In this document: piece after piece, positions 1-36,236 of the stretch
Position numbering within the stretch: position 1 is the first letter of the stretch
How the letters are laid out: the number at the start of each line of letters is the position of its first letter
From: Synechococcus sp. 1G10
GTDB taxonomy: Bacteria; Cyanobacteriota; Cyanobacteriia; PCC-6307; Cyanobiaceae
Direction of reading: 5' to 3'
DNA length: 48,054 nucleotides
NCBI RefSeq assembly: GCF_002252625.1
Contig: NZ_NQKW01000021.1
Location: forward strand, 1 to 48,054
The notes under the pieces: model-generated
What the model saw: the letters and a program-made list of their open reading frames with translations, nothing else
The model's database searches: none
What the model was told of the DNA's origin: nothing
Position numbers and translations under genes: made by a program

Positions 1-2
1 AG

Positions 3-350
3 ATTGAGGACAGCTTCCTGGTCACCCGAACCATGATCTGGGTGCTGCCGATGCTGGGCTTTCTCGGAACCGTACTTGGCATCTCCGTCTCGATCGGAGG
101 CTTCTCTGGCTTGCTGGCCAATGTGACGGATCTGACGAAGGTGAAGGCTGGCCTCACGCAGGTCACCGGTGGCCTCTCCACTGCCTTCGACACCACCCTT
201 CTGGGGATTGTCTGCGCCGTCGGCTGCATGGTGTTGATGAGCCTGGCTGAGCGCTCGGAGTATCGGCTGGCCGGGGACCTCGAAGCAAGCATCAACGATT
301 CCCTCTTCCCTCGATTGGCTCAAGATGAGACGTCCACGGCGAAGCTCTAG
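3..350 (+). CDS. MotA/TolQ/ExbB-type proton channel subunit, 5' end cut off by window
   Basis: The reading frame is open from the window edge, so the true start lies upstream; the first ATG inside the window (33) is internal. The visible part holds two membrane segments with the family signatures PMLGFLGTVLGIS and LSTAFDTTLLGIVCAV, the third and fourth transmembrane helices of MotA/TolQ/ExbB proteins. Members form inner-membrane pentamers that couple ion flow to work through a MotB/ExbD partner. The last 26 bases overlap the next gene, which encodes such a partner, so the two are translationally linked. The C-terminal tail after the last helix is short (about 35 residues), unlike the long tail of ZorA. 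Family assignment is strong; the task of this particular channel is unknown. Confidence 0.85.
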   Translation: MEDSFLVTRTMIWVLPMLGFLGTVLGISVSIGGFSGLLANVTDLTKVKAGLTQVTGGLSTAFDTTLLGIVCAVGCMVLMSLAERSEYRLAGDLEASINDSLFPRLAQDETSTAKL

Positions 351-816
351 TACAGGAGTTGATCTGATCGGCTTCCTCGACATCCTCAGCGCTGTGATGG
401 TGATCGTGTTGCTGGTGATTTCGGTGCTGGCCCTCTCGATCGGGGAGCAGGGAACTACCCAGGCTGCACCTGAACCGTTGCCAGCTGCGGCTTCAGAGTC
501 CAGGACAGCCCCCGCTCTCGTCGAGATCACCACGGTGGGTGGCCGTGATGTCACTGCGGCCACTTCCTTCCTGCTTTGCAAGGGAGAGAGCCTGGAGCAA
601 TTCGATCCCGGAAACGGCGAGAGAATCAAGTCTTGGTCACTCGGCACCACCAGTGCAGCGGCGGTGGCTCGGGAACTGGCAGCCCCCAACGTTTACCTGG
701 CGGTATCCGGTTCCTGCTTCCCCTCACTTGACTCTCTGGTTGAAGCCTTCCGGGCCAGCGGGTCGCAGCTTGGCTACGAGCCCACATCAGAGGAGGCCGT
801 CTTGCCATGGCAGTGA
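325..816 (+). CDS. MotB/ExbD-like single-span membrane protein, first copy
   Basis: A 163-residue protein with a basic N-terminus, then one membrane span at about residues 13-40 that opens with an aspartate (VDLIGFLDILSAVMVIVLLV), as in MotB/ExbD proteins where that acid carries the proton. The remainder is periplasmic and ends in a block (residues ~125-155) with the pattern YLAVSG...FRASGSQLGYEP. There is no OmpA-type peptidoglycan-binding domain. It overlaps the channel gene before it by 26 bases and the next gene by 10 bases, so the three form one operon. The call as the stator partner of the channel is inference from family and overlap. Confidence 0.7.
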   Translation: MRRPRRSSSTGVDLIGFLDILSAVMVIVLLVISVLALSIGEQGTTQAAPEPLPAAASESRTAPALVEITTVGGRDVTAATSFLLCKGESLEQFDPGNGERIKSWSLGTTSAAAVARELAAPNVYLAVSGSCFPSLDSLVEAFRASGSQLGYEPTSEEAVLPWQ

Positions 817-1403
817 AGCAGAGAGGTCGTCGTCGCTCTGGTGCAGCCGAGCTGAGCTTCGACAGCTTGATCGATGTTTTCATGAACGTTCTGGGCGTTC
901 TGATGATCACGGCTGTCGTGCTGGCACTCGCGGCTCCAGGGCGGGTCAGCAACCCACAGGCCCCCACTCCACAACCACCAGTAGCCCCGCCACCCATTAC
1001 ACAGCCGGAGCGGCCAGCAGCTCGGCTCTCATTGCCCCAGGTTCAGGAAGCCGCTACGAGTCCGCTCTATCTGCTGATCACTGGTGATGGCATCCGGCCA
1101 TTTTCTGGGGATGATCTGGAGACGACCGGTCGATTCTTCAGCCTGACTGATCTGGGGTCTTCTCTGCAGCTGGATCCAATCGCCGGCAGGGTGATGAGTG
1201 CAGAGGAATTGCGGTCCTGGCTGCGGCAGCACGACCCTGGTTCACGTCATCTCTCAGCAGCGATCACCCCCGATGGCACCGGGTATTACAAGGAGGTCCG
1301 CACCATTGCGGCAGAGGAGGGCTTCCGCTCTGGATGGCTCGCGCATGAGGGTGATGGTGTCGTGCTTAGCAGCGGAGGGCGTACTGGTTCGCTAGTCCAG
1401 TAG
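807..1403 (+). CDS. MotB/ExbD-like single-span membrane protein, second copy
   Basis: A 198-residue protein that repeats the plan of the preceding gene: basic N-terminus, an acidic membrane span (FDSLIDVFMNVLGVLMITAV, residues ~19-45), a Pro-rich linker (residues ~48-75) and a C-terminal block with the pattern ITPDGTGYYKEVRTIAAEEG followed by GW. The C-terminal blocks of the two genes look related, so this is probably an ancient duplication giving a channel with two different partner subunits. Start overlaps the previous stop region by 10 bases. Followed by about 95 bases without a gene before the nuclease gene. Function beyond channel partner is not known. Confidence 0.7.
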   Translation: MAVKQRGRRRSGAAELSFDSLIDVFMNVLGVLMITAVVLALAAPGRVSNPQAPTPQPPVAPPPITQPERPAARLSLPQVQEAATSPLYLLITGDGIRPFSGDDLETTGRFFSLTDLGSSLQLDPIAGRVMSAEELRSWLRQHDPGSRHLSAAITPDGTGYYKEVRTIAAEEGFRSGWLAHEGDGVVLSSGGRTGSLVQ

Positions 1404-10629: not shown

Positions 10630-10661
10630 CCGGGCTGGCATCAAAGGCAGCAGCCCGCCGC

Positions 10662-13202: not shown

Positions 13203-13237
13203 ACTGACGTGCCGAGCAACGAGGAGAGCAAGAAGTC

Positions 13238-13975: not shown

Positions 13976-14050
13976 GGAATAAGTTGACGAGAATGGATCT
14001 CCGGCGATCCTGGATCCAGGGGTGCCAGTGCGGATCGATAATGGGCCCAA

Positions 14051-16015: not shown

Positions 16016-16104
16016 CGCAGGGGGTTTGGCATTTCTTGAAAAACAGCCGCTCACCTTGTACAATTCCCCTCATCCGATCACCACCTGACTTCCAACTCCA
16101 AGAA

Positions 16105-16866: not shown

Positions 16867-16965
16867 CTGATCATTCACTCATGAGCTGATCACAAACGAG
16901 CGCTTGAATCGTGCTGGCATGCCGGCAGTTGATCAATCGCTCTGCAGGATTGGCCATGGCAGCAA

Positions 16966-17178: not shown

Positions 17179-17308
17179 GACGATCCAGCCAATTCAGATC
17201 CAGAGCCTACTGGCTCGTACGGAACGCAACCACTAAAAAGCTGATTTACGTTGGCCGGATTCCTAGGCGGCTGGTCGTCATGTTCCGATCAGCCTCGAAC
17301 CTGCTCCT

Positions 17309-17866: not shown

Positions 17867-17920
17867 GTGTGTGTTTTGCGGACGTGGGGTTTGACAAATG
17901 CGCAAGCAAAATGCAAGCAT

Positions 17921-18500
17921 AATTTCAGTTGTGGCCTTGAACCACTCAGGCTTTTTAGCAGTTCGTGCGTCCAGGGGCCAGGCTTCCGTCAGCGATACCT
18001 GACGCTTAGCAGCGTCAATCCAATTTGGTGACTTTCAAGAAATCAAGGCTTGAGGGTGCATGGCACGGCACCGCCCTGATGGCGAAACGATCAGCCATTG
18101 AGATGCTCTCGCTTGCCACCGACTGGTAGTGCTGCGCTCAGTTCAGTCGTTTGCGGCTACACCGTCTGAGGTGGAGTTGCTGCGGTTGATGCGCTTGCGA
18201 AGCTGTCGGGGGCACCGATGGCGGCGAAGGCTCTTTAGCAGAGACAGGACCGGCGATCAGCGGGGGGACAGAAGTCGGTTTGATGGAGGGCCTCAATGGA
18301 CTGGAGCACGCTAGTCAGATCCGGCTACGCCATGCATCAGTGGGGGAAGCGTCGAGTCAGGGATCGGGAATCATGCTGATCGTGGCCTGGTGATGGTGAA
18401 TGATGCCCCGATGCGCTCGGTGGTGGGTCAGGCCTTCGGAACCGTTTCGTAGGTGCGCCGAACACGGGTGATGCGGTCCAGCGGTGACTTCTCTGATGTG
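17921..18500. other. gene-free stretch left of the mobile element
   Basis: Apart from the direct repeat that follows at 18501, I see no gene in about 580 bases. Minus-strand frames here continue the MGPVQK start for only 32 codons to a stop at 18428-18430. Confidence 0.4.
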
Positions 18501-18560
18501 GTCTGGCTTTTCTGGACAGGCCCCATCGTTAACCTGTGAGGCGGGGCACCGTCCCTGAGA
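18501..18560. repeat. direct repeat found downstream of both terminase genes, copy B
   Basis: Same orientation as copy A at 5012-5070. On the minus strand it contains GGTTAACG, then ATG and codons for MGPVQKSQTTSEKSPLDRIT before a stop at 18428. It likely marks the start of a phage gene next to the terminase (often the portal gene) whose body is lost. The two copies bracket 13.4 kb. Confidence 0.7.
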
Positions 18561-18645
18561 AGGGGCTCCCACCCATGCACCAGCGCCGTACCCACAGACC
18601 CGACTGCAAGGCCGGGCACCAAGAAGGAGATGAGCATCCCAGCCC

Positions 18646-18846
18646 TCAGGCGCAGCAGCGCACCCTGCTGACACGGCCCACCAGATGCCTCATGCCAGCC
18701 TCGACCCCAGCGGTGAACTTCACTTCGGAGCTGGGTGCCCATGCATGTTCCGCCAGCAGCAGCTCCTCCTGCTGTCTCCGGAACCGCTCCGCCGCCGGCT
18801 GCTCCCGTTGTGACATCGAGTGGCTGAACCAGGAAGGCCCCATCAC
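18646..18846 (-). CDS. small phage-type protein, 66 aa, coupled to terminase
   Basis: Its ATG overlaps the terminase stop (ATGA at 18843-18846), so it is translated from the same message. The peptide (SHSMSQREQPAAERFRRQQE, ELLLAEHAWAPSSEVKFTAG then VEAGMRHLVGR) is helical and charged. No family recognised. It ends just before the repeat that starts the next, lost, gene. Confidence 0.5.
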   Translation of the reverse strand: MMGPSWFSHSMSQREQPAAERFRRQQEELLLAEHAWAPSSEVKFTAGVEAGMRHLVGRVSRVRCCA

Positions 18847-20309
18847 CAGACCCTGAATAAAGGGCGACCTTCCGTGCCGTCCAAGGCCCCCGTGACGTAG
18901 TTGTACGTCCGATCAACAGTCGCCGTCAGCAGGTAGCGGATCGCATCAGCGGTGTGATCCGGGCCGGTGGTATCAAGATCGCCGGAGTGCAGCTCGTCAT
19001 GCACAAGCACCGGCAGCGTCGCCCAGAAGCTCTCACACCTGGGTGTGGCATAGAGCCCCGCCGCGGTGGGATCCCCTGCTGCTTCCAACATCCTGCTCAC
19101 CAGCGCCCAGCCCGGAATGCGACGGACCTTCGGGGCCGCGATGAAGCTGACCCCCTGCTGCGCCAGCTGATTGCCCAGGCTGCCCTCTGTGCTGCCGATC
19201 TCCGCCGCCATCGCGGCATCCATCAACCGGTGCTTCCTTGAGACGTCGCGCAGCTCGATGCGGTTGCGTTCGGCGAGCAGGAAGGCCGCCCGGGCGATGG
19301 TTGCGGTTGTGGTCCTGCGATCACCGATGTTCCACTGCCGCTGCCCATCGGGGGTGCGCAGGTCGGTGTAATGCTCATCGAGCAGAATCACACTGTTCGC
19401 CCCGATCTGCTTCCTGCCCCAGAGGATCGGCTGACGCGGCCTGTAGGCCAGGATCAGACTCGATGGGCTGCGGGTACCCCAGTCCAGTGTCAGCCACAGA
19501 TTGTGCGGGTTGTAGCTCCGATCCGTTAGGGGCAGCCCGCCCAGGTCCATCACCTTGATGCGCTCCACGTCCCACACCGGCCCAAAGAACGCACCAGAGA
19601 CCGTTGCCCAGTTGCCGTAGACCTCGGACTGGATCCTGGCATCATCAAAGTTGCAGGATGCCTTGAGACTCTCGATGTAGGCATCGCGATCAACGATGTG
19701 CGGGTTGTCAAAGAGCGTCGATGGCACATAGACCACTTCCTTGCGGAACATCTCGCAGTAGCCCGGCCGCCAGGCACTCAGCCGTGAGATGACGTGCTGA
19801 TAGATCCACCAACTGCCGATGTTGTTCGGGTTGGCGGTCATCACCAGCCTGGGCACCACACCAGGTGTTGTCGATCGCATCGATGACTTCAGCCGCAGTA
19901 CAGGGCCAGGATCGGCGATCTGAGCCACCTCATCGATGTAGACATGACTAAGGTCCAGACCCTGGAACCTACCGAAGCTGGCCTCGTCCTTGATGTAGTG
20001 CAGATACAGGATGCCGCCGGTGTTGAACCTGAACTCCTTTGCAGCAGAGAGATACTTGCTGTCTTTCAGCTCCGGCGTGATCTCGATTTGATCCAGCAGT
20101 TCGCGTTCAAGCTTGCGTAATCCGGCTAGATCCTTGCGCACCAGCGCACCGACATACCCCGCACCGAACCGCACTGCATCACGGACAATTAACTGCACCA
20201 CAGCGGTACTCTTGCCGCCACCACGGCCTCCGCTGAGCAGCAGGTCACATTCGTCCGGTACCGCCAGCACCAGCTTCTGCCATGGCAATGGTTGCAGTCG
20301 CTCAGTCAT
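18843..20309 (-). CDS. phage terminase large subunit, intact
   Basis: 488 residues, usual for TerL. ATPase domain: Walker A SGGRGGGKSTAVVQL (~residues 27-42), Walker B HVYIDEVA (~130) and the coupling motif MTANPNNIGSWW. Nuclease domain: LWLTLDWGTRSPSSLIL (first catalytic Asp), a middle region, and GPDHTADAIRYLLTA near the C-terminus (last catalytic Asp). TerL pumps DNA into the procapsid and cuts it. I start at ATG 20309; its first eight bases overlap the stop of the upstream gene (ATGACTGA), so they are coupled. No portal, capsid or tail genes accompany it, so the element is either a satellite or a deleted prophage. Confidence 0.92.
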   Translation of the reverse strand: MTERLQPLPWQKLVLAVPDECDLLLSGGRGGGKSTAVVQLIVRDAVRFGAGYVGALVRKDLAGLRKLERELLDQIEITPELKDSKYLSAAKEFRFNTGGILYLHYIKDEASFGRFQGLDLSHVYIDEVAQIADPGPVLRLKSSMRSTTPGVVPRLVMTANPNNIGSWWIYQHVISRLSAWRPGYCEMFRKEVVYVPSTLFDNPHIVDRDAYIESLKASCNFDDARIQSEVYGNWATVSGAFFGPVWDVERIKVMDLGGLPLTDRSYNPHNLWLTLDWGTRSPSSLILAYRPRQPILWGRKQIGANSVILLDEHYTDLRTPDGQRQWNIGDRRTTTATIARAAFLLAERNRIELRDVSRKHRLMDAAMAAEIGSTEGSLGNQLAQQGVSFIAAPKVRRIPGWALVSRMLEAAGDPTAAGLYATPRCESFWATLPVLVHDELHSGDLDTTGPDHTADAIRYLLTATVDRTYNYVTGALDGTEGRPLFRVW

Positions 20310-20682
20310 GGTCAAGCAATCCTGCAGTGCTTGTGCCAGCGATGCGCTGATTCCTGATTTGCGTCAGCCGTCTCTGCAGATCCTGTTCGCTGGGGTCGGG
20401 GAGGATCGAGAGTTCCTGCTGGAGTGTTTCCTCCTGGTGCAGCAGGCGGCGTTCGGCCTCGGTGATCAGCCGTTCCCGTGCTTCCACCAGCACGGTGATT
20501 ACCGCCTCAAGTCGCTCCTTCTCCGCCTGGAGAGCTTGCCTGGGGCCTGCTCCAGGGCCAACCCTGGCGAGGGTCTGCTCAAGCCGCTGGCGATGGTTCC
20601 GCAGAGTGCCGGCGGCCGAAAGCCTTGAGCTGTACGCGCTACTGAGTACTTCCTCAGCGGTGGTTGGGTAGTTGGCGTTCAT
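20302..20682 (-). CDS. coiled-coil protein upstream of terminase, possible small terminase subunit
   Basis: 126 residues, nearly all helix: YSSRLSAAGTLRNHRQRLEQ, RQALQAEKERLEAVITVLVE and AERRLLHQEETLQQELSILP. Its 3' end overlaps the terminase start by eight bases. In many phages the gene in this place is the small terminase subunit, but no DNA-binding HTH is visible here, so the role is inferred from position only. ATG at 20682 is preferred over the open frame to 20772, which is Pro/Gly-rich. Confidence 0.55.
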   Translation of the reverse strand: MNANYPTTAEEVLSSAYSSRLSAAGTLRNHRQRLEQTLARVGPGAGPRQALQAEKERLEAVITVLVEARERLITEAERRLLHQEETLQQELSILPDPSEQDLQRRLTQIRNQRIAGTSTAGLLDHD

Positions 20683-23630: not shown

Positions 23631-24212
23631 CTACTCAGCGGACTCAAGGGGCTCCACATCAATGACACCCTCAGCACGCGGACGTGCATCTACCGTGATG
23701 CTCGGCATGCCATTAGCCACAAGCGCCATATAGCTATCTCGATCCATTGGCGCCAAAGCATTACGGGTGGATTCGTCTACTTCAATGCGGGCAACAGTGT
23801 CTGCACCTTCTCTTATGCCGAGGAATGTCGTGATTTCCTTCACGGTGGCGACAATTCCACTAAGAGGCTTTAGATCCACTGGTTCATGCTTGATCGTCTC
23901 TGATCCATCAGGATGACGAGTGGCTGTTTTCTTGCCTTGTTTTGCTATCTCCCACTGTTCGTGAAGCTCTTGCAGTACGAACTCGTGCTGTGCTAGCGCC
24001 TTGGCACGCCATTCCTCGCCAGCGTCGGCCAAGGTGGCCTTCCAGGTGGACTTGACCAGCTTGATGTCACGATAGGCCGCATTGCGATCAATGCCTAGCT
24101 CCGCTGCAATCCGGCGCACTGAATAGCCTTTGACCACCAAAGGCGCAACCTGCTCACTTACGCGTTGCTGCCGCTTGGGGCTGGCCTTGGCAAGGGTGCT
24201 GGCAGTGGCCAT
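23631..24212 (-). CDS. HTH DNA-binding protein, possible small terminase or replication regulator
   Basis: 193 residues. Residues ~10-50 form a helix-turn-helix of the resolvase/terminase-small type: RVSEQVAPLVVKGYSVRRIA, AELGIDRNAAYRDIKLV. A central helical part (EFVLQELHEQWEIAKQGKKT) and an acidic C-terminus (GVIDVEPLESAE) follow. Layout resembles phage small-terminase or packaging-recognition proteins. The frame is open upstream to 24314, but the ATG at 24212 (MATASTLAKASPKRQQRVSE) is the natural start. It lies downstream of the primase-helicase on the same strand. Confidence 0.6.
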   Translation of the reverse strand: MATASTLAKASPKRQQRVSEQVAPLVVKGYSVRRIAAELGIDRNAAYRDIKLVKSTWKATLADAGEEWRAKALAQHEFVLQELHEQWEIAKQGKKTATRHPDGSETIKHEPVDLKPLSGIVATVKEITTFLGIREGADTVARIEVDESTRNALAPMDRDSYMALVANGMPSITVDARPRAEGVIDVEPLESAE

Positions 24213-24536
24213 GAGGATGGGAACGGTTATCAGACTCACTTTATAGGGGTGTCTCACCCTTCGGCCCACCCCTCGTGCGCTTGACCCAGCAGGGCAGCGG
24301 TTTGACCGGGCCAAGGCACTGGAGGTAGAGACATTGTCGCGAATCGCTTAGTGGGCCGGTCAAGGCCGGTTGCGCAACAGGGCCCCAGCAGCCATGTGCT
24401 GACCGGGGGGAGCGCCCACCAGCCTGCCCTGTGGGGTGTAACGAATATGAGTTAGACGATGCCGTTGTGAGTGCCGCTTTGCGGGCCAGGGCGATCAAGT
24501 GCCCATCAAGTGCCAGGACGGGCCCGCGGGCCCGGA
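24213..24536. other. gene-free stretch after the replicase gene
   Basis: About 320 bases without a gene. At 24520-24533 sits a perfect 14-base palindrome (GGGCCCGCGGGCCC) three bases beyond the replicase stop; it lacks a T run but could end or slow transcription. Confidence 0.4.
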
Positions 24537-27500
24537 TCAAAGGCCATCGAGAAGGGGGCTGTTGTCGGCCTCCTCAGCCCGCTTGATGCGAGCGAGGGTG
24601 GCTGAGCAGACGGCTGCGGGCAGGCCTGTAACTCGTACGACATCACGAAGTACACCCGGAGCGGAGGCATTGGCCTTGAGCTGCTCAAGGGCGGCCTCAA
24701 TGCGTTCGAGGTGGGTCTGGACCGGCCCAGGTCCGGATTCAATGCTGTCCATATGGTCCTGGACCGGTCCGGTCCGGATGTCTGGTCCGCCCAACCCCGC
24801 TGGTATGAATGGGCTGGACTGGATGACCAGATCGGACCGCATAAAAGCGCCCCCTATAGACCCCTCCGGGAGAGCACACCCCCCCCCACGGACTACTGAC
24901 CCTATACCCCCTTCATTCTTAAGAACTTTAGATAAATCATCTGGTCCATCTGGTCTAAGGGGCAAGGTGCCACTCCCCACCCGCGTTTCAACCGGACCAG
25001 ATAGTCCCCCACTGAAGCGGTCTACGTCTGGTCCGTGTGCGGCTGCTGGTCCGGGTTCTGGTCCTTGGTCGCCGTCGGCATCCATGCGCCGCCAGAGGCG
25101 GAGCTTCTGCCCGTCGATTACGGGCCGGTACTGCTCGAATCCGAGCCGCTTGAGGAGTGGGGCAATGATGCGTGCGTGGGCGGAGGTGGTGGCGCCCTCA
25201 CGGACGCAGCGAGCACCGAGGATGGCCTCGACGGTCGAGAACTCATCGGGCGCCCGGATCAGCTCGAGGCGGGTGTCACCACGGCCGTCGGGGACAGTTT
25301 CAGCGAAGCCCTCGAGCCAGCGCTGCAGGAGAGCGGTCCAGGGGTGTTCACCGTGGAACTGCTCGTTGGCGGCCTCGTTGGCGGCGAGCTGATCATCAAG
25401 GAGCCAGGTGCTTTCATCGTTGCGGTAGGCGATGAGAGCGGCCTTCCAGATCCGGTCACGGTTGGCGGCGATGGCCTCGACATCAATGTGGCGGGTGATT
25501 TCAACAATGAGGAAACGCCTGTTGCCGGTGTCATCAACGAGGAAGTCTCTGCGGTTGCAAGTGCCGACCAGGGCAAAGCGTCGCGGGAAGGACTGCGACA
25601 CACGGCCATAAGGAGGCCTAAAACTATCCTTAGAGGCACTGATCAGTGCCTTGAGCGCACCGGCCTCCTTCCTGCTGGTGATGGTTTCGAGCTCTGCGAA
25701 CTCATACAGCCAGTGCTGGTGCATCACGACCAACCTGTCCTTGTCCGAGTCCTGGTGAGTGTCGTTATGCCACTCAGCACCGACCAGGGCCTTGAGGCTG
25801 CGTGTTTTACCGAGGCCCTGCTGATCGCTCTGGAGCACGGTCATGGTTTGGAACTCGCAGCCGGGCTCGAGGGCACGATTGACGAGGCCGAGCAGGAGCA
25901 GGCGAAGGTAGAGCTGCTGAAGGGGATCCGTGACGCCATAGAAGGCATAGAACTCATCCCAGGGCAGGGGCTCGATGGTGGGGTCGCCTTCGACGGTCTC
26001 GAGGTAGACCTGCACAGGATGGAAGCGTGAGTGCCTCGAGGCAGCTATGAGCGCATCGGTGGATGATTCCTTGGAGATGGACCAGCCGGCTTCACTGAGG
26101 CCGACGTGGAGGTCTTCGATCTGCTCGGCCGGGATCGAGATCTTGTCGATGGTTGGCGCGAGGGCGAGGTCATCGAACTGCAGGCGCCGCCCCAGAACCT
26201 GGCGAAGGGTGGCGGCGAGATCACCTTTGACGAGATCAGTGCGCTTCCTGCCGTTATCGGTGTCCTGCCAGCCGGAGCCGACAGCAACGAGCAGCGCGAC
26301 CCCACCACAGACCCCCTCCACCTGCGCCGTGGCGGCATTGATGCGAGCGTTCCGGGCCGCTTCAACGCGAGGCGCATCAATCAGGCGCTGCAGGCGACAG
26401 ACGGCCGCAACAAGCGGAGCGTACTTCTGCTGGCACTCGCTTACACCTCGCCGGATTTCGGACTTGATGTGGCCGGCGGGCGCCTTGGTTTTGGCGGTGA
26501 TGGCATCACGGAGTGGGACGAGGTTGCGGTCATCGCCATCAGCACCAACACGAGCGGCGGTGATGGCCACGAGCGAGGCGATCACCGGATGGATGGCGGG
26601 ATCGGGCCACTTCAGATCTGGATTGGTGGCAGCGATGCGATCGAGGATCTGATCAACAGGCAGTGCATCGGCGAGGTGTGCATCAACAGCGGCCTGGGCC
26701 CTCTCGAGCTGCTGGTGGAGAGCGTCCTGCCCCCCTGCACCCCCGTGGCCGTTCTGGCTCAGGCCTAGGCCATCACCTGCACCCGCCCAACCCTCTGCAC
26801 GGGCCCGGGCCCAGAACACACCTTCATTGAGCCACCCGGAACTACGCAGCACCTGCGGGATGTCCCAGCCGCAGCTGGCTGATGGCGAGTGCTCTTCCAT
26901 CAATCCGATGGCCTCATCACAAGCGCGGCCTTCATCGCCGTGGAGCCGGTAGAGCGCATCAGTGAGGCCGCAGAGCACGAGGCGGTGATAGGGATACCGG
27001 TAGGGGCTTCCTTCCGGTAGACCGCTCACGCGGCGTGGGACGACGGCCAGGGCAGCATTGATCTCGGCCAGCGTGCGCGGCGGCAGGTAGGGGCGGCCTT
27101 CAGCTGCTCGAGCGGCTTTGCGTTCGTCTTCGGTGGGTGGCCCTACTTCTCCGTCCCGTGGGGCAGAGCCATAGAGCTTGGTGCCGGATTGCAGGCCTGC
27201 GATCAGATCCTCGAGGGCCGGGTTAGCTGCCACCTGTGCATCCACCCAGGCCTCGAGCTGCTCGAGCCTGCAGGTGATCGGCGTGCCGCTGGCATCGCGG
27301 CCCTCCCAGACGACGGCGGTCTGGCCGATGATCTGACCTTTGAGTTCTGGATCACCAAACCGCTTGGCCACCTTGTCAGTGGCGATGTAGCTGGATCCAG
27401 CGAGGCGCATCAACCGGCTGGGGTTACGGCAGACCGCATCACTGCCGAGCACGACGACGAAGCGCTCCATGAACCGCGTCCACCGTGGGATGTCGGTGCA

Positions 27501-28109
27501 GGGTTGATCGAGCCGCCACCAGACATGAAGCGAGCCGCCCTCCCAGGTGTTGAGACCCAGCACCGGCGTCGGGAGCCCAGATGCCCTAACCGCCTCCACC
27601 CTCGACCAGGCCTCCTGCCAACTGACCCCATCCCATTCCGCAAATGCAGCGGGGCAAGCCTTGACGCTGCGGTCATCCCCGGCGCCGCCAGCGATCAGAT
27701 AGAGCCGTTTGCTCTGGCCCTGTGCCGCGATCAGATGCGGGAGGCGGGCCTCGAAGGTGGTGCCGGGGACGGGTCCGAGATCCTGCGCAGCGCTGCCGTC
27801 CCACTTGATGGCACGGAAGTAGGCGAGATCTGCGGGGATACCGAGCAGCTCGAGGTGGAGGGCTGCCTGGTCTGAGTTGAGAAGCGAGCCGTCGCGCCTG
27901 GCATCAGCAACCCGAATAGCAACTAAGCCATGCCCTACGGCTTCTGCCGTGGCAACACCACTGTGAGCAACAGGCTCACTCTGGGCGGATTGTGGCTGGT
28001 TGCTAAGATCGGACACAGTTGCATCGTTTTGAAACCCAGTTGCTCGAGATCTCGAAAGCAAGACAGCAACTTGAGTGGATAGGGGTGGGGCAACCTGCCC
28101 CTTTTTCAT
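24537..28109 (-). CDS. large primase-helicase (AEP-like primase plus VapE/VirE helicase)
   Basis: 1190 residues. Residues ~110-290 look like a RepB-type archaeo-eukaryotic primase: AFAEWDGVSWQEAW, then GGSLHVWWRLDQP and NPSRLMRLAG. Residues ~690-900 are a VirE/VapE (PF05272-like) helicase: Walker A SDQQGLGKTRSLKAL, HQHWLYEFAELETI, LISASKDSFRPPYG, ALVGTCNRRDFLVDDTGN and RRFLIVEI. The last ~190 residues are Gly/Pro/Asp-rich, then a small helical domain. Together these would unwind and prime the element for its own replication, as in satellite phages and plasmids. The Gly/Pro tail is encoded by a repeat-rich stretch (24716-25064) that may be the origin. Length is unusually large for the family. 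Confidence 0.85.
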   Translation of the reverse strand: MKKGQVAPPLSTQVAVLLSRSRATGFQNDATVSDLSNQPQSAQSEPVAHSGVATAEAVGHGLVAIRVADARRDGSLLNSDQAALHLELLGIPADLAYFRAIKWDGSAAQDLGPVPGTTFEARLPHLIAAQGQSKRLYLIAGGAGDDRSVKACPAAFAEWDGVSWQEAWSRVEAVRASGLPTPVLGLNTWEGGSLHVWWRLDQPCTDIPRWTRFMERFVVVLGSDAVCRNPSRLMRLAGSSYIATDKVAKRFGDPELKGQIIGQTAVVWEGRDASGTPITCRLEQLEAWVDAQVAANPALEDLIAGLQSGTKLYGSAPRDGEVGPPTEDERKAARAAEGRPYLPPRTLAEINAALAVVPRRVSGLPEGSPYRYPYHRLVLCGLTDALYRLHGDEGRACDEAIGLMEEHSPSASCGWDIPQVLRSSGWLNEGVFWARARAEGWAGAGDGLGLSQNGHGGAGGQDALHQQLERAQAAVDAHLADALPVDQILDRIAATNPDLKWPDPAIHPVIASLVAITAARVGADGDDRNLVPLRDAITAKTKAPAGHIKSEIRRGVSECQQKYAPLVAAVCRLQRLIDAPRVEAARNARINAATAQVEGVCGGVALLVAVGSGWQDTDNGRKRTDLVKGDLAATLRQVLGRRLQFDDLALAPTIDKISIPAEQIEDLHVGLSEAGWSISKESSTDALIAASRHSRFHPVQVYLETVEGDPTIEPLPWDEFYAFYGVTDPLQQLYLRLLLLGLVNRALEPGCEFQTMTVLQSDQQGLGKTRSLKALVGAEWHNDTHQDSDKDRLVVMHQHWLYEFAELETITSRKEAGALKALISASKDSFRPPYGRVSQSFPRRFALVGTCNRRDFLVDDTGNRRFLIVEITRHIDVEAIAANRDRIWKAALIAYRNDESTWLLDDQLAANEAANEQFHGEHPWTALLQRWLEGFAETVPDGRGDTRLELIRAPDEFSTVEAILGARCVREGATTSAHARIIAPLLKRLGFEQYRPVIDGQKLRLWRRMDADGDQGPEPGPAAAHGPDVDRFSGGLSGPVETRVGSGTLPLRPDGPDDLSKVLKNEGGIGSVVRGGGCALPEGSIGGAFMRSDLVIQSSPFIPAGLGGPDIRTGPVQDHMDSIESGPGPVQTHLERIEAALEQLKANASAPGVLRDVVRVTGLPAAVCSATLARIKRAEEADNSPLLDGL
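24716..25064. repeat. TCTGGTCC repeat cluster flanking an AT-rich patch, candidate origin
   Basis: Exact TCTGGTCC (either strand) at 24781, 24940, 24994 (reverse), 25027 and 25057, near-copies at 24949 and 25045, and a GGTCCGG/GGACCGG run at 24719-24777. In the middle, 24914-24940 is a 27-base AT-rich patch (CATTCTTAAGAACTTTAGAT) in otherwise GC-rich DNA. Iterons beside an unwinding patch are a common origin layout. All of it lies inside the 3' part of the replicase gene. Confidence 0.45.
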
Positions 28110-28625: not shown

Positions 28626-31196
28626 TCAGTCTTCATCTTCCACGCGCTCCCCCGCCAAGGCATGAACTGCCGCATCCCACGGGATTGGCTGCCCCATCAG
28701 CCGCTGCGTCACTTGCTCACGGAGGTCATTTGGGATTTCGACCTCTTCATCGTCTGCGGCAGCTAGTGCGGCCTCCATGGCTTCCTCTGCCGCTCGGATC
28801 TTTGCTGCCCGTCGGTACGCCGCGGCCAGCGTTGCCTCATCGGGCACCACCTTGATGATTTCCATGGCATCGAGCTGGCCGTGAACGAACGCAATGAACT
28901 GAGCGGATGTCATGGCGTTGAGCTCGATCCGCTCTCCACCCCAGCCGCCGAATTCTGCGGTGCCCCTCGTGACGAGGAATGCGAGTTCCTCATCGGTGGC
29001 CCCGCATTCCCGCAGGTTGTGGCGCGGATCCTTCTTCTGCTGCTTGCTGAACTCAAACGGCTCTGATTCAAGCTCCATCTCCTGGGCCTGTTCCAGCCGC
29101 AACCCCAGGCTGTGCACGATCGGGCTGGCATTGAACTGATAGCGGCGGCCGTCGTTCTGTATCGTGCGGGCGATCGCCAGGCCGGCGAAGTCGAAATCAT
29201 GGAGCAGCAGGATCGGGATGCCCTGCTGGCTGAGCTCATCCACCAGCCGACGGGCAGCGGTCGTGCTCATCCCTTTGGTGGAGAAGATGGCCACGTCGTA
29301 GAGCTCCGCTGTCCGGGCCGCCTCGAACAGGGCGGTGAAACCTTCCTTCTCGATGAAGATGGCAGCGCTGTAACGCCCAGATGGTCCGCAGGTGTGGATC
29401 CGGTTAGGCATGACGTCACTGACGTCTAGTACCGCCGTATCAGGTGCGCACCAGCTGTTGATATAGTTGCGTACCTTAAGTGTCCCCATCGCCACCCGGA
29501 TTCTTGTGTGAGGCTCCATGAAGGTGCCGCGATCGTCGTAGACCACATCCCAGTCTTTGGTGAGCTCGAAGTTCTCGGAGATGAAATCAGGCAGAAGGGT
29601 CTGAGTGAAGTACGTATCGCTGAGCGGCTTGCCGGTTGCGTTCAGGATCGCGCCCCGTGCGGCGTACATCACCTGACGGGCGTTGGCCGGCAGGGTGTTG
29701 TTGTTGCTGGCCTTCATGTAGGCATCGGCCATCACGGCCCATGCTGCCTCCTTGGTGGTGACGCCACTCTGCTGGCGACTCAGGCGTTCCAGCTCCTTCT
29801 CTGTTGACTGTGCATCACGCCGCTGCCTGGCCTTGAGCTTCTTCCAGTTCTTGGTGATGGCATCGATCACGGTGCGGATGGCGGTCCACTGCTCTGGGGT
29901 GAAATTGATCAGGGTCTTGCCGCGATCGGTGTACCGAAATGCAGGGCAGACCATGTGGAGCACCACGGTGATCGGGTCGCGGTAGTCGGCGAAGTTATCG
30001 GAGAGGGCGCTCTGGATGAGATGATGCGGCACCTCCCGCAGCGGGGAGTTGTTGGCCCCGACCACAAGGACACGAGTGCGCTCGGCGTTGCTGGAGACAG
30101 CGAACCAGCCCTCCACCACGAACGGCCTGTTTTCGTCCTCCACCAGCACCTTGGCGTAGGCCGTGCTGCCCTCTCGGATCTGATGCAGCCGTTCGTGGAG
30201 CGTCCTGCCGATCACCCCAAGCCGTTTGGCCTTGACCGGCTCACCCCCGTAGGCAGCGATCACGTCATGCAGTTCCTGAACCTTGTCCTCAAGCACCGCA
30301 CCGCCTGTGGTGAAGGCAGCGGTAATGGTGGTGCGCTGCAGCGTCAGCTCATCGAGCACAGCGCTCTGCGTCCAGCTACCACTCATGCCAGCGAACTGCT
30401 TGATGAAGTCCCGCACGAACATGGTGGGACTGCTGGCCAGATGGGCGCAGAGCAGCGCCTTGAACTGCCCGCGGTAGTACCAGCTCGCCGGTGGTCTGGC
30501 GAGCGGCTTCCACTTCTTGAAGACCCAATCGGCGGCCGAGCGCGGGGCTGCGTACCAACTGTTATCAGGATCGCGCTCCCCATCAAGGACACGGATCCTG
30601 ACGTGCGGGTTGAACAGGCCGAAGCTCCAGGCCAGCTCGGTGGCGGATGTAAAAAGTGAATCCTCGAGTTCGCTTGCTGCCCCGGGCCAGGCGATCCTTA
30701 CAAAAGTGCCAGCGGCCGGCGGCACGAGGATCTGCTGGTGATCGAGCACCGGCTCATTGCGGATCGAGTCGAAGCTGGCCGTGATGCGGTGCTCCACTCC
30801 CTTGGCGGTGATGGTGACGTCGCCGCGGCCATGGGCGACGAAGCCGGCGGCATAGAGGCACTTGAGGGCATTGCCCAGCTGGCCCCTGGTCGGGCTGACG
30901 TAGAGGTTGTTACTGCTGGTGCGGCTGAGGTAGTCCAGCGAGCTGGCCACGGTTTCCGGGGGAATCCCGGGCCCGTTGTCGGCCACCATGAGCTCGTCGG
31001 CCCCCACGGTGATGGTGATCTCCGGCGAGATAACACCGGCGCCTTCTGCAGCATCGAGAGCGTTGTCGATCAGCTCCTTGAGGAGCATGGGGAGCCAGCT
31101 TTCGCGCCCGGCGCCCATCTGCATCTCCAGTTCCTTCTCGGAGAAGAACTCTGCGGTACGGCTCACCGTGAAGGTGGTGCGTGCAATTTCAGCCAT
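28626..31196 (-). CDS. topoisomerase VIII-like type IIB topoisomerase (B and A subunits in one chain)
   Basis: 856 residues. N-terminal GHKL ATPase: LLKELIDNALDAAE (N box, ~39-52), MVADNGPGIPPE (G1, ~70-81) and SPTRGQLGNALKCLYAAGF (G2, ~101-119). Centre: ARQVMYAARG, where Tyr at ~511 is placed as the DNA-cleaving tyrosine of Topo VI A/Spo11. C-terminus: a Toprim domain with AIFIEKEGFTALF (metal-binding Glu, ~615) and LLLHDFDFAGLAIART (DxD, ~667). Topo VI normally uses separate A and B chains; the fused form is topoisomerase VIII, known from plasmids and integrated elements. It could relax or decatenate the element. ATG 31196 is preferred over the codon at 31226. Confidence 0.9.
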   Translation of the reverse strand: MAEIARTTFTVSRTAEFFSEKELEMQMGAGRESWLPMLLKELIDNALDAAEGAGVISPEITITVGADELMVADNGPGIPPETVASSLDYLSRTSSNNLYVSPTRGQLGNALKCLYAAGFVAHGRGDVTITAKGVEHRITASFDSIRNEPVLDHQQILVPPAAGTFVRIAWPGAASELEDSLFTSATELAWSFGLFNPHVRIRVLDGERDPDNSWYAAPRSAADWVFKKWKPLARPPASWYYRGQFKALLCAHLASSPTMFVRDFIKQFAGMSGSWTQSAVLDELTLQRTTITAAFTTGGAVLEDKVQELHDVIAAYGGEPVKAKRLGVIGRTLHERLHQIREGSTAYAKVLVEDENRPFVVEGWFAVSSNAERTRVLVVGANNSPLREVPHHLIQSALSDNFADYRDPITVVLHMVCPAFRYTDRGKTLINFTPEQWTAIRTVIDAITKNWKKLKARQRRDAQSTEKELERLSRQQSGVTTKEAAWAVMADAYMKASNNNTLPANARQVMYAARGAILNATGKPLSDTYFTQTLLPDFISENFELTKDWDVVYDDRGTFMEPHTRIRVAMGTLKVRNYINSWCAPDTAVLDVSDVMPNRIHTCGPSGRYSAAIFIEKEGFTALFEAARTAELYDVAIFSTKGMSTTAARRLVDELSQQGIPILLLHDFDFAGLAIARTIQNDGRRYQFNASPIVHSLGLRLEQAQEMELESEPFEFSKQQKKDPRHNLRECGATDEELAFLVTRGTAEFGGWGGERIELNAMTSAQFIAFVHGQLDAMEIIKVVPDEATLAAAYRRAAKIRAAEEAMEAALAAADDEEVEIPNDLREQVTQRLMGQPIPWDAAVHALAGERVEDED

Positions 31197-31296
31197 AGGG
31201 TCCCCCCGGCGGCCGGTTGCCGCCATTTCGTGAGTGCATAGGTTGTTGAATCAGGTGGCCCCTGCTTGGTCCGGCGCAGGGGCGTGCCGGTGGTGG

Positions 31297-31663
31297 TCAG
31301 CCGGTGCCTTGAGCAATGCCGAGCAGCTCGGCGTCGTGGCCCTTGCCGCGCTTCAGGGCGGCCATCTCGCGGCGTGCTTCCTGCTCAACGAGGCAGTCGG
31401 CGGCATCAACGGTCTGCTCGAACAGGCGGTCGAATCCGTCGCAGGTGTGGCAGTCGATCGGGTGTGGGATGTCCGCCTGAAGCAGGTGGCGGTAGGCAGA
31501 GCCGCCATGGCGCGAACAGGTCGTGATCGATCGGGTTGCTGAGCAGCTCGACCAGTACATCGCGCAGGGCATTGCTGCGGGTGGTGTGGATCGTCTCTCC
31601 ATCCTTCGCCAGGCAACGGCGGAGCCGGCCCAGCAGCTGCTCCTCGTTGATGGTGCGGCTCAT
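31297..31663 (-). pseudogene. unknown element gene with a frameshift
   Basis: Starts MSRTINEEQLLGRLRRCLAK at ATG 31663, overlapping the stop of the upstream gene, and reads well to PIDHDLFAPW. The neighbouring minus-strand frame then gives AYRHLLQADIPHPIDCHTCD, GFDRLFEQTVDAADCLVEQE and ARREMAALKRGKGHDAELLG to a stop at 31297. The join lies near 31500-31515. A combined product of ~120 residues with a CxxC motif is likely. Either a one-base indel or a programmed frameshift could be the cause. It lies just upstream of the topoisomerase gene in the same operon. Confidence 0.55.
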
Positions 31664-32268
31664 GGCGGCACCTCCGTGGCCGGTGCCAGCTCGTCACCTC
31701 CGAAAGCCAGTCCGCTGATGGAGTCGAAGGTCAGGGATGGGATCTCAGCCGGCGTTGCCAGCAGCTCCTCGGCCAGGCCAAAGGTGAGCCATCCCTTGCC
31801 GAAACCAGGATCCAGCAGGCCGGAGACGAGCCAGCGGATCTGCATGTCATCGACTGTGGTGTCGGTGGTGATGCCACAGCCGTAGAGCACCTCGCCGGCT
31901 GCAAACTCCCAGGAGGATGCGCTGCGGGCCATGTGAAAGACATCCCATGCGTAGCCATCCCAGGAGGATCCACAGCCCTCGTTGATGGCGGTGGCCACCA
32001 ACTGCTCGAGGCCAGCAGTGACGCGCACCTCGAAGTCAGGCTTGATCGCAGCGGTGGCGGTGATGGCCTTGGCGAGGTTGCTGCGATCAGAAGGGAGGAA
32101 CAGGACCTCGATCATCTGGCGGTCGAACTGGCCGTAGCCGAAGGCAAAACCCATCGGCGCCATGCGGGCATTGATCGCCAGGTAGAGCTGCTGCTCGTTG
32201 AAGGCAGCCCAGGGACATCCCTCGGCTTTGAGAACCATGCGGGGATCGCGCGCTTTTGAGGAGTGCAT
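31660..32268 (-). CDS. unknown element protein, 202 aa
   Basis: Soluble protein with aromatic-rich sequence: PWAAFNEQQLYLAINARMAP, FAFGYGQFDRQMIEVLFLPS, SSWDGYAWDVFHMARSASSW. No domain recognised. It lies 20 bases after the HTH gene and overlaps the next gene by four bases (ATGA), so HTH, this gene, the frameshifted gene and the topoisomerase form one operon. Such a fixed link to the topoisomerase hints at a joint role, which is inference. Confidence 0.6.
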   Translation of the reverse strand: MHSSKARDPRMVLKAEGCPWAAFNEQQLYLAINARMAPMGFAFGYGQFDRQMIEVLFLPSDRSNLAKAITATAAIKPDFEVRVTAGLEQLVATAINEGCGSSWDGYAWDVFHMARSASSWEFAAGEVLYGCGITTDTTVDDMQIRWLVSGLLDPGFGKGWLTFGLAEELLATPAEIPSLTFDSISGLAFGGDELAPATEVPP

Positions 32269-32288: not shown

Positions 32289-32525
32289 TCAGTAATCAGC
32301 CAGTGCAGCCTCGATCTCCAGCGGAGTCATGACCTGATGGGACATCACTGCCTGCAGAGCCGGGATGTTCCACTGGAGGGGTGCAACTGAGCCGAAGCCT
32401 TGTCGCCTGTAATGCACAGATGCGGTGAGCCGCCCATCCTCAACATCACGACGCAAGGTACGTTCGTGGATGTCAAGAATGCGGCAAGCATCACCGGTCC
32501 GATACCACTGTCGTGGACGGTCCAT
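32289..32525 (-). CDS. HTH protein of the excisionase/MerR type
   Basis: 78 residues from ATG 32525 (seven codons later than the first ATG at 32546). RQWYRTGDACRILDIHERTL then RRDVEDGRL form the winged HTH seen in excisionases and MerR-like proteins; the rest (YRRQGFGSVAPLQWNIPALQ) is the wing and tail. First gene of the topoisomerase operon. As the nearest small DNA-binding protein to the serine recombinase it is a candidate recombination directionality factor or an operon repressor. Confidence 0.65.
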   Translation of the reverse strand: MDRPRQWYRTGDACRILDIHERTLRRDVEDGRLTASVHYRRQGFGSVAPLQWNIPALQAVMSHQVMTPLEIEAALADY

Positions 32526-32699
32526 TGGAGAAATGAAGGGGGGCAACGGATGAACTGCCTAGGCAGCCTCTCCCGTCGGCTTCACCTGGGTGGACCAAGA
32601 TCCCGAACGATTCGGAGAGTCCGCAGGTGGCAGCCGCTGCCAGAAGCATATCCCATCCATCCCCAGACTGCACACACCCCTTAAGCGACAGGCTTAGTG

Positions 32700-33229: not shown

Positions 33230-35113
33230 TTAGCCGTCAGCGCTGACCCGCACCTCCCCCCCACCAGCCAGTTCGATCCAGGCACGCCCACCACTGCGGA
33301 TCGCTTCCTGCACCCGTTGCCGCAGCTCACGTTCGTTCTCCACCAGGAATTCGGCGTACACCTGATCGCAGCTGCCTTCGGCAAGATTCGCGGTGGCCAT
33401 CGCACCAAGCAGTGGTTGCCAGTCGATCGGGCCATCACCGATCTGCAGACCCATCCGCTGCTGATGGCCATCCACCGTGATCCGCAGCCCAAGGCGCAGC
33501 AGGTGGGATCTCACCAACCGGCGATCCGCCACCGTGTCGCCACCGCAGGCGAAAGTGCTCAGCAGCCCACGGATCTGCTCCTGTGCTTCGGCCCCAATCG
33601 TCTCGATCGAGCGGTTGACCTGCAGCCGTTGCAGCTCCCCTGCTGCCGCATTCAGCCGCTGCCTGGCACCATCCATCGCCGTCTCTTGCCCCGCCTGACG
33701 GCGAGCCAACACCCGCAAAGTCGCAGGGTCGGACTCGTTGGCCATGGCGATATCGCCCGCGTTGATCGCCGCGCTGATCGCATCGACCTGTGCCTGTGCA
33801 GCCGCCACCTCCGCCATCGCAGCAGCCAATGCCAGCCCCTGTTGCCCTGACGCATCGGCCCGCAGCAGCGTCAGGAAATCGGCTGCGCTCAGACGAGTCA
33901 GCAGTGCTGCCTGGGCAACAGGCACGGTCACACCGGGCGCATGGCATCCCGATCTTTTGTGCTTCCCACGGCAACGCAATCTGTAGTCGCGCCTGACCCC
34001 TTCTGGCCGCTTTCGGGTGGTACAGGTTGCGCCGATAAGATCGCCGCAGACGCAGAAGCTCAGTCCAGCGCCAAGCCAGCGCAGCTGATCGCCCCGGCCC
34101 ATGTCCTTCGGTCGGCGGCGGCGGATCGTGGCCAGCAAGGCCTGATGCTCTGCTTCGCTCAGCAAGCTGGGGTAATAGCCCGCCTGCGGTTGTTCATAGG
34201 TGCGGGCTGGCATGGGCGGCAGATCCGCTGGATCGGTGCCTTGGCGGAGGAGCAGCGCACAACGCTCCTGCCAGTCACGCTCCCTCGCTTTATGGCCTGG
34301 GCAGAGCACCTGCCGGTGGCCCGTGATCGCCGGGTTCTCAATCACCTGCAATATCGATGCCCCACTCCATTGAACGGGCTTATAGGCATCCCGCGAGCGG
34401 CGTTTTGCGCTGGCTGACCAGCGATCCCTAGCCACCTGGCCAGGCGATGGGATCCCTTCACTGTTGAGCAGGCCAGCGATCACCGTGCTGCCGTGGTCGG
34501 AGGCAAGCTCCAGCAGCCGACGGATGACAGTGGCGTAATCGTTCAGCACCCACCGGCCCTCTTCATCGAGGCTGATCCATGCCGGCGCCTGTGATGGCGT
34601 GACCGGTTGCCCTTCACGGATTCGCTGGCGTTTGGCCTGCTGGACGTGCGTCAGCCGACGGCTGAGCTTGTCGCTGAACTCATGGGCGGAACCAAGCCAG
34701 AACAGCAGCTCGTGCAGTTCCATTGGGTTGCCCCTGATCGTTTCGCGGTTGATGTCCCGCCCCTTGGCCATCACGCCGAGGGTGACGCCGGCGTTTAGCA
34801 GGTCATCGATCAGCACTGGTAGTACCGCGAGGGGGAAGCTGCGGCTGAACCGATCCAGGTCTTCCAACAGCAGGGCAACGGGATCGACGCCGAACTGTCC
34901 GGCCTTCAGGTCCGCCAGGAAGCGACCCAATGCACCGCCGGCGAGGTTCGCCCCTCCGAATGCGGAGATGCCTGCATCGGCGTAACCAGGGCCGTCGTAG
35001 AGGTTCCACCCACGCTGGCGGCAGTAGCTGGCTGGGTCGGCTGCCTGGCGCTCCAGGCCGAGACCACTGGTCTGGGCAACGGAGGAGACACGGCTGTACG
35101 GGACGGCGAGCAA
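33230..35113 (-). CDS. large serine recombinase
   Basis: 627 residues. N-terminal resolvase domain: VPYSRVSSVAQTSGLGLERQ with catalytic Ser10, then LLLEDLDRFSRSFPLAVLPV. Next a recombinase domain (~160-290; MPARTYEQP region at its end) and a zinc ribbon (FCVCGDLIGATC...YRLRCRGKHKRSGC), then a long coiled-coil part. These enzymes integrate or excise DNA between attP and attB in one direction unless a helper protein is present; XisF of heterocyst-forming cyanobacteria is a relative. The ATG lies only 36 bases from the break in the sigma gene, in the same direction, placing it at the very end of the element. Intact and full length. Confidence 0.92.
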   Translation of the reverse strand: MLAVPYSRVSSVAQTSGLGLERQAADPASYCRQRGWNLYDGPGYADAGISAFGGANLAGGALGRFLADLKAGQFGVDPVALLLEDLDRFSRSFPLAVLPVLIDDLLNAGVTLGVMAKGRDINRETIRGNPMELHELLFWLGSAHEFSDKLSRRLTHVQQAKRQRIREGQPVTPSQAPAWISLDEEGRWVLNDYATVIRRLLELASDHGSTVIAGLLNSEGIPSPGQVARDRWSASAKRRSRDAYKPVQWSGASILQVIENPAITGHRQVLCPGHKARERDWQERCALLLRQGTDPADLPPMPARTYEQPQAGYYPSLLSEAEHQALLATIRRRRPKDMGRGDQLRWLGAGLSFCVCGDLIGATCTTRKRPEGVRRDYRLRCRGKHKRSGCHAPGVTVPVAQAALLTRLSAADFLTLLRADASGQQGLALAAAMAEVAAAQAQVDAISAAINAGDIAMANESDPATLRVLARRQAGQETAMDGARQRLNAAAGELQRLQVNRSIETIGAEAQEQIRGLLSTFACGGDTVADRRLVRSHLLRLGLRITVDGHQQRMGLQIGDGPIDWQPLLGAMATANLAEGSCDQVYAEFLVENERELRQRVQEAIRSGGRAWIELAGGGEVRVSADG

Positions 35114-35136
35114 GCGTGTATCTGCTGTATTGACAA

Positions 35137-35156
35137 CATACTATGCATGTAGGGCA
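35137..35156. other. junction of element and sigma gene, likely attachment-site core
   Basis: Similarity to sigma factors ends at the codons for AVPY, whose last base is 35149; the next minus-strand bases are ATGCATAGTATGTTGTCA. Family sequence would continue IRGE(L/I)QH. The recombinase start lies 36 bases on. The crossover core should fall within these bases, perhaps at TACAT. Confidence 0.6.
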
Positions 35157-35427
35157 CCGCGAAGCTGCTCAGGGCGGTGGGGCGGGATGGATCAAAGGCC
35201 TCAATCGCCCGGATCAGCCCAAGGCAGCCCAGCTGCACCAGGTCGTCGAGCGGCACTGCGGTGCTCGCGCTCTGGCGCACGGCCACCCGGCGCACCAGGG
35301 GCAGATTCAGCTCCACCAACCGGTTGCGCAGGCGGTGGTCGCCGCTGCTGCGGAAACGCTGCAGCAACTCGGTATTGAGGCTGTGCAGGTCCTGTTCCTG
35401 GTGGGGCTGGGGGCGTGAATCGGGCAT
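35149..35427 (-). pseudogene. group-3 (SigF-like) sigma factor, N-terminal part only
   Basis: From ATG 35427 the frame gives a normal small sigma factor through regions 2.1-2.2: LLQRFRSSGDHRLRNRLVEL, NLPLVRRVAVRQSA, VPLDDLVQLGCLGLIRAIEA, FDPSRPTALSSFAVPY. There the match ends; the open frame runs on for 80 codons antisense-like through the recombinase start. Regions 2.3-4 (promoter melting and -35 recognition) are gone, so the product could not work as a sigma factor. In cyanobacteria group-3 sigmas govern pili, motility or stress responses. It lies 129 bases after the SGNH gene in the same direction. The remaining half is not visible in the window. Confidence 0.82.
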
Positions 35428-35555
35428 GGCGGGGACAGCGGCGGGTCCGTGTTTCCACCCTCTGTCCCATGGCACTGCCGGCGCTTCACCCCAACCGGGG
35501 AACTCCCCTCCCCCGGATGGGTGACTTGTCGTTGTTCAACACCAGGCCGGCGGGC

Positions 35556-36236
35556 TCAGCAGGCCAGTGTGCCGGCCAGACTCAGCTCCAGCCCCGCCCA
35601 GGCCAGCAGGGCCGGCCACTGGCGCACCCGCTCGTACACGCGGTCATGGCCGTCGGCATTGAGATGCAGGCCGTCGGCAGTGAGCAGCCGGCTCCAGTGG
35701 GGGTCCTGCAGCAGGGGCTCCAGCAGGGGCAGGAAGGGCACATCGGCCTCCAGGCATGCCTCCTCCAGCAGGCGCTCGTACTGGTGCACAACCGCCAGCT
35801 GATACCAGAGGCAGCCCGCGAAGGGCATCACCGCCTCATCCACGGGCGTGAGCCCGATCACCAGCACCGGCGCCAGCCGCACCGCCTCCCGCAGCAGCTG
35901 CTGCAACCCGAACAGGAAGGCCTCCGGTGCCAGCTGGTGGCGGCCGTCGGGCCGCCCGACCCGGGCCGTGTCATTCAGGCCCACGCTGATCACGATCCCC
36001 TGGGGAGCCTGGCGGCGCAGCTCACCGCGGGAGCCAACCTCCCCATGCAGCCTTGCCGCCAGTCGCTCCAGGCCATCACCGCGCACCCCCAGGTTGTACA
36101 GAACCGGTCCATCAGGCAGCCCCATCCAGTGGCGCCGCAGCCGCTCGCACCAGCCGCCGCCATCGGGGTCGCCCCAGCCATAGACACCGCTGTCCCCCAG
36201 CACGATCAGCTTGCGCGGCGTCGCGGTCACGGCCAT
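35556..36236 (-). CDS. SGNH/GDSL-type hydrolase
   Basis: 226 residues with the SGNH blocks: LIVLGDSGVYGWG (block I, nucleophile Ser), the Gly of block II in YNLGVRGDGL, VISVGLNDTARVG (block III, GxND) and LLTADGLHLNADGHD (block V, catalytic Asp and His). No signal peptide, so probably a cytosolic esterase or lipase. Substrate unknown. It begins 11 bases after the permease stop, so it shares the transporter operon. ATG 36236 is chosen because upstream sequence in frame is antisense to the permease and Pro-rich. Confidence 0.85.
   Translation of the reverse strand: MAVTATPRKLIVLGDSGVYGWGDPDGGGWCERLRRHWMGLPDGPVLYNLGVRGDGLERLAARLHGEVGSRGELRRQAPQGIVISVGLNDTARVGRPDGRHQLAPEAFLFGLQQLLREAVRLAPVLVIGLTPVDEAVMPFAGCLWYQLAVVHQYERLLEEACLEADVPFLPLLEPLLQDPHWSRLLTADGLHLNADGHDRVYERVRQWPALLAWAGLELSLAGTLAC

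Follow-up and report, generated by a model that had tools for sequence, protein, structure and literature searches.

The stretch of DNA analysed here, referred to as the window, spans contig C76 from end to end (48,054 nucleotides) in an assembly of Synechococcus sp. 1G10 that comprises 84 contigs and is 99.9% complete. On its minus strand, at 35149..35427, lies the 5' half of a SigF-like sigma factor gene, recognized both from its frame and by Pfam. The frame reads MPDSRPQ...SSFAVPY and departs from the sigma family after the codon for the Y of AVPY: Pfam sigma region 2 is matched over profile positions 1-54 of 71, as against 1-69 in the intact protein of a sister genome, G005, to which the half gene is 99% identical over 77 aa. 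The sigma type is assigned from that intact protein, not from the split halves of the window's own genome (G000). Among NCBIfam models it comes closest to SigF and SigB/F/G, under cut-off in each case, with SigF PRK07408 the best (2.3e-48, 165 bits; cut-off 261); SigK models match at about 1e-12, and the interrupted gene is not sigK. We take this class of sigma factors to be the one usually named 'group 3'.

Thirty-six bases past the last sigma codon, in the same orientation as the sigma 5' half, a TTG codon at 35113 opens the gene of a large serine recombinase, the integrase (33230..35113, minus strand, 627 aa), whose reading frame has no internal stop. A sigma gene ending at AVPY with an intact, co-oriented serine recombinase 36 bases on is what the first-pass annotation had described, and both parts of that description hold. 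The integrase matches Pfam Resolvase PF00239 (1.8e-11) and Recombinase PF07508 (1.4e-4), both above cut-off, and PHROG 95, 'integrase' (5e-40). In an alignment of five relatives the RVSS, Q, R and E...R-S-R positions are invariant (R7 V8 S9 S10 Q13, R21, R87 S89 R90 in alignment numbering; add one for the 627-aa frame); we presume these residues to be catalytic. The zinc-ribbon PF13408 gives no Pfam match in the integrase; C353, C380 and C389 are invariant in the same alignment. Solved structures searched with the single integrase sequence returned no match, and the same search with a profile of the five-member alignment returned three, TP901-1 integrase included. A consensus scan of 34900-35700 found neither promoter nor terminator, which says little either way.

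Inward from the sigma 5' half the genes all run on the minus strand, in the order integrase, HTH protein, unknown, topoisomerase-VI-like protein, VapE-type protein, unknowns and terminase. The HTH protein (32289..32546, 85 aa) is a candidate directionality factor (excisionase) by virtue of matches below cut-off to HTH_17 (E 1.8e-4) and to the TIGR01764 excisionase model (E 0.0073); it has no PHROG match, and no relatives of it were found around four related integrases. Its neighbor (31660..32268, 202 aa) has no family match in profile searches. There follow a topoisomerase-VI-like fusion of 866 aa (28626..31226), with B-type ATPase and A-type Toprim in one chain, and a VapE-type (helicase/primase) protein of 1190 aa (24537..28109) that matches Pfam PF05272 at 1.4e-56 as well as the PHROG DNA helicase and DNA primase families. 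The topoisomerase-VI-like chain also has a weak JetD match. Farther in are a 227-aa protein (23631..24314), with 30-33% matches near related integrases in two other genomes, G002 and G126, and a phage-type terminase large subunit (18843..20315, 490 aa) identified by both Pfam and PHROG. The terminase is the only packaging match among the 20 element proteins given to PHROGs; capsid, portal and tail families are absent from that set.

The rest of the element is mosaic cargo: nucleases, a LuxR-type regulator and proteins without assigned function, with many matches to window 1-19900 elsewhere in the genus. Several features of this arm may be recorded in their own right. A fragment at 5158-5853 resembles part of the terminase (18843-20315) at 29% identity; the surrounding DNA (5097-6033) is 93% identical to C13:5605-6541, and there C13 matches the terminase at 28%, which points to related elements elsewhere in the genome. 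A further 2.4 kb, at 15482-17913, has a counterpart with 93% identity within this genome, at C16:179330-181752. About 140 bp beside the terminase gene (18494-18634) recurs at 82-95% identity in genomes of the genus, sometimes at contig ends; G000, G001, G002, G004, G005 and G007 are among the matches listed. An HNH protein at 1479-2345 resembles type IV methyl-directed restriction enzymes, according to PADLOC.

The other half of the sigma gene lies on another contig of the same genome. A search with the 3' half of the G005 gene finds it at C5:19032-19688, on the minus strand, as the first-pass annotation had predicted: query residues 1-219 are covered at 97% identity, the first residue is exactly the next one after AVPY, and the halves join at AVPY|IRGAM. 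Two short frames with sigma region 4, at one end each of contigs C65 and C10, had also been candidates for the missing half; on reading they proved to be two different genes, neither of them the one sought, which we take to be of group-2 type. These (L004:1-115 and the end of L007) are two other sigma genes cut at contig ends, with a stretch in common.

Both junctions carry the same 8-bp core, ATGTAGGG, at 35147..35154 in the window and at C5:19687-19694. In alignment to the G005 locus, C5 matches to position 8721 and C76 from position 8714, an overlap of 8 bp at the core. The overlap is 8 bp in G006 also, and 6 bp in G003, where the C5 alignment stops 2 bp sooner. The element end next to the core in the window (35130..35146) has an arm, TTGACA, and a TGTCAA lies at C5:19700-19705; the recombinase gene stands at this end of the element, 36 bases from the junction. 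When the flanks are joined at the core they form a single open frame of 348 codons, stop to stop, and the restored sigma protein is of about 312 aa counted from the likely ATG.

In the sisters compared the site is empty. It is uninterrupted and colinear in all three sister regions compared (G003, G005 and G006), and the sigma gene is full-length in 8/8 other genomes of the genus, one genome per species. The proteins of these eight read AVPY or AVLY, then IRG or VRG; the core is one base off in G005, G001, G003 and G002, and identical in the other four. In a family sample of 400 genomes, 203 match the sigma protein at E <= 1e-15, and among the matches listed only this genome's two rows break at that residue. 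The circumstances that the first-pass annotation had named as telling against an element (the same truncated gene in sisters without an element, a missing 3' half, or a half that fails to join at AVPY) are absent in the genomes examined. The two halves, the exact shared core, the open joined frame and the empty site in sisters together argue that the insertion is precise, site-specific and at least 49.4 kb long. The proposal that a serine-recombinase element splits the sigma gene is thus borne out by shared core, joined frame and empty site alike; attachment falls on the codons for Pro-Tyr-Ile within sigma region 2.

The length is the sum of the element DNA known between the halves: C76:1-35146 (35.1 kb) and C5:19695-33905 (14.2 kb). 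GC content is 0.53-0.63 in the element segments measured, and 0.645 and 0.665 in the two flanks. That the two arms belong to one element is probable, and depends on how the contigs are paired. C76 begins within cargo, at the end of a MotA/TolQ - ExbD-like operon (1..1403, plus strand), and the preceding gene is at the end of C5. The first 1.4 kb of C76 is 94% identical to the start of C13 (window 1-1404; C13:1-1404), and the last 3.5 kb of C5 shares 94% identity with the C9 end in reverse orientation; the outermost 97 bases are identical within each pair. That is, the operon is present in two 94% identical copies, and therefore the assembly broke there. In a sister, G007, homologues of the C5-end and C76-start pieces belong to a single operon, with about 0.6 kb between them. 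The simplest pairing joins C5 to C76 across about 0.6 kb within the duplicated operon, and would give an element of about 50 kb. Pairing C5 with C13 is unlikely, as it would place a 217-kb contig inside the insertion; of all sigma-region-4 matches in the genome the best, a 498-aa frame, is on C13. Sister genomes gave no link between C9 and C13, and therefore the C5-to-C76 join rests on parsimony: C9:3450-15000 has matches in 3/3 sisters in scattered pieces only, and C13:1405-15000 in 0/3 at E <= 1e-80, a search that lacked a positive control and so shows little. A little further support for the join may come from C5-arm proteins (LuxR-type, 88%; SNase, 59%) whose relatives occur on the G002 contig bearing a related integrase.

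The sigma halves could also have been parted with no insertion at all, by an assembly artefact or a rearrangement such as an inversion. They do sit on separate contigs, each of which runs out in duplicated DNA. The junctions, however, are at least 12.9 kb from any contig end, and they have an exact core in common with an integrase at one of them; we regard this account as highly improbable.

Relatives of the integrase show what else this group may do. At E <= 1e-20 it has matches in 8/300 family genomes sampled, G000 included. The closest relative, in G264, is 45% identical; an empty-site search in the genus of that genome gave no usable common breakpoint. A relative in G002, of the same genus as the host here (40%), adjoins a breakpoint at L053:5385 (contig C41, L086/L087): DNA that matches sisters ends at that same base in 7/7 sisters searched, and an open frame spans the breakpoint in both sister loci with frames listed (L082 and L083). 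The gene so interrupted is presumably yraN/UPF0102, judging by its appearance; in the 48 kb examined of that contig its other half did not turn up. Besides a primase, the G002 contig has matches to the 227-aa protein (30%) and to the terminase (26%); the terminase-like frame has no Pfam match, and the primase has no BLAST match to the VapE-type protein of the window. The same contig also has an SNase and proteins with weak tubulin-like and FtsA-like matches. Near the relative in G126 are matches to the VapE-type protein (36%, 119 aa) and to the 227-aa protein (33%). Since the G002 relative lies in an unrelated coding gene, integrases of this group can use coding genes as attachment sites; the group travels with similar genes, and can enter coding genes other than sigma.

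Wider collections give no help in placing the element. Searches with short exact peptide patterns, which reach close relatives only, found one integrase match in the named-genome collection (28% over residues 6-125) and no integrase relative in viral contigs; five phage records have an integrase match, at 25-28% and coverage of 32-64%. A 25-base pattern across the proposed attP has no exact match in viral contigs. In the reconstructed attP, 12/20 positions pair about a centre at the core edge, the best of 38 centres scanned; the best centre in attB pairs 10/20. Dyad symmetry of this kind is weak, and gives modest support to recombination of attP with attB by the integrase.

The explanation we favor, with a probability of about 85%, is that an island of about 50 kb with its own large serine integrase has integrated site-specifically into a SigF-like sigma gene. 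That is, the integrase at the junction presumably made the insertion, recombining the attP of the element with an attB inside the sigma gene; integration would leave the 8-bp core at both ends, and the integrase as the first gene inside, co-oriented with sigma. While the element stays inserted, the whole sigma factor would not be made. The integrase, probably with a directionality factor, should be able to excise the element at the core and restore the frame exactly; the 85-aa HTH protein is the candidate for that factor, and may direct excision. The best reading of the locus is thus a mobile element that has switched a sigma gene off, reversibly in principle. Besides the shared core, the joined frame and the empty sites, the explanation has in its favor the intact integrase frame with its conserved residues, the mobile-element gene set, the lower GC of the element, sigma halves with little decay, and the G002 relative at a breakpoint within a coding gene. 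Excision may still occur; the assembly contains the split form only, with no restored sigma copy or circle seen. Further points that tell against the explanation are the two ways of pairing the contigs, the weak dyad symmetry of the reconstructed attP, the excisionase match below cut-off, and the lack of a BLAST match between the G002 primase and the VapE-type protein.

Two further accounts overlap with this explanation, as they concern what has become of the insertion, the first of them its present role. One supposes a regulated switch: certain conditions or certain cells would set off excision, so that the element times sigma production, as skin does or as in active lysogeny. The plan matches that of skin in sigK (PMC5025042) and of interruption elements that have a co-oriented recombinase as their first gene (PMC4874684), and the two sigma halves, like the integrase frame, are intact. 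However, the eight other genomes of the genus (one genome per species) have the gene uninterrupted, a related integrase targets an unrelated gene, the assembly holds the split form only, and intact halves are equally expected from a recent insertion. Absence of the element from eight other species and occurrence of a related integrase elsewhere fit a mobile element at least as well as an evolved switch, and we think a regulated role unlikely. The corresponding picture of a reversible switch in a unicellular picocyanobacterium (the label for the host is that of the first-pass annotation), in which excision of the 50-kb island turns a SigF-like regulon on and reintegration at the core possibly turns it off, is to be held with equal reserve.

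The other account supposes a dead insertion, in which the element can no longer leave and the loss of the sigma gene is permanent. Phage-type gene fragments in the left arm (5158-5853, for example) and mosaic repeats suggest wear, and the sole candidate found for a directionality factor is a weak one. Against this, the integrase and both sigma halves keep open frames, and the halves show little sign of decay. Changes were counted by branch for G000 versus G005, with G006 as outgroup. On the G000 branch the 5' half has 3 synonymous changes against 2 nonsynonymous, and the 3' half has 10 against 2; one further site is unresolved. For the G005 branch the corresponding counts are 1/0 and 6/4, and for that of G006, whose gene is intact, 5/2 and 8/22. 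The G000 branch thus has no apparent nonsynonymous excess, which speaks against a dead insertion. The test is weak, because the intact gene of G006 shows that the 3' half tolerates much change, and the absence of decay would be explained as well by recent insertion as by selection. A dead insertion is a real possibility, short of even odds.

The preferred reading, a mobile element in a sigma gene, has close parallels in known systems. A gene-interruption element is marked by halves that join in frame at a shared core, by a terminal recombinase, and by excision that restores the gene under defined conditions; the first two marks are seen here. Serine-recombinase interruption elements are on record from three unicellular cyanobacteria, one of which, Synechococcus sp. 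PCC 7502, has its element in a DNA helicase gene; in two of the three the serine recombinase is first and co-oriented, and xis genes are co-oriented and towards the beginning in 23 cases, serine and tyrosine types together (PMC4874684). In the fdxN/XisF-type elements, as here, a serine recombinase lies near one end and coding genes are interrupted; the word 'sigma' does not occur in the main text of that paper (PMC4874684). The first-pass annotation had likened the locus to skin and to XisF-type elements. The comparison is apt for the architecture; the integrase itself matches the NCBIfam XisF model at only E 0.0035 (16 bits, cut-off 375). Among the open-licence literature matches listed, mostly titles and openings of abstracts, there is no cyanobacterial sigma gene split by an element with a recombinase.

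Phage A118 in Listeria comK resembles the present case in that its serine integrase has its attB within the coding region of a regulatory gene; its attP and attB are little alike (PMC3556126). A118 is a phage, whereas the element here has no capsid or tail match among the 20 proteins given to PHROGs. Cyanophage P-SS2, whose description mentions sigma factors and an integration site, was considered as a precedent and set aside: the site proposed for it, a 53-bp match partly identical to tRNA-Met, is non-coding (PMC2784084). The gin element in gerE of Bacillus cereus (PMC5595907) and SP-beta in spsM of Bacillus subtilis (PMC4191935) are excised in sporulation, rebuilding the gene. Those are other genes, in spore-formers, with excision demonstrated; the present case is known from its sequence alone.

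An excisable element in this sigma gene would make a clean, testable case, outside spore-formers and heterocyst-formers, in which the presence of a sigma factor hinges on the departure of a mobile element; it also provides one more serine integrase with defined attB, attL and attR sites and with a candidate attP. The nearest parallel is the skin element in sigK of Bacillus subtilis and Clostridium difficile, a prophage-like element that likewise has a large serine recombinase and splits a sigma gene; its precise excision rebuilds sigK (PMC5025042). In C. difficile the recombinase adjoins the 3' half of the gene (PMC5025042); here it adjoins the 5' half. The target there is sigK, and here a SigF-like sigma. 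The host lineage here, unlike the hosts of skin, is presumed not to sporulate. The plan, by this comparison, is one already known from skin and from the cyanobacterial interruption elements; what is noteworthy is the target.
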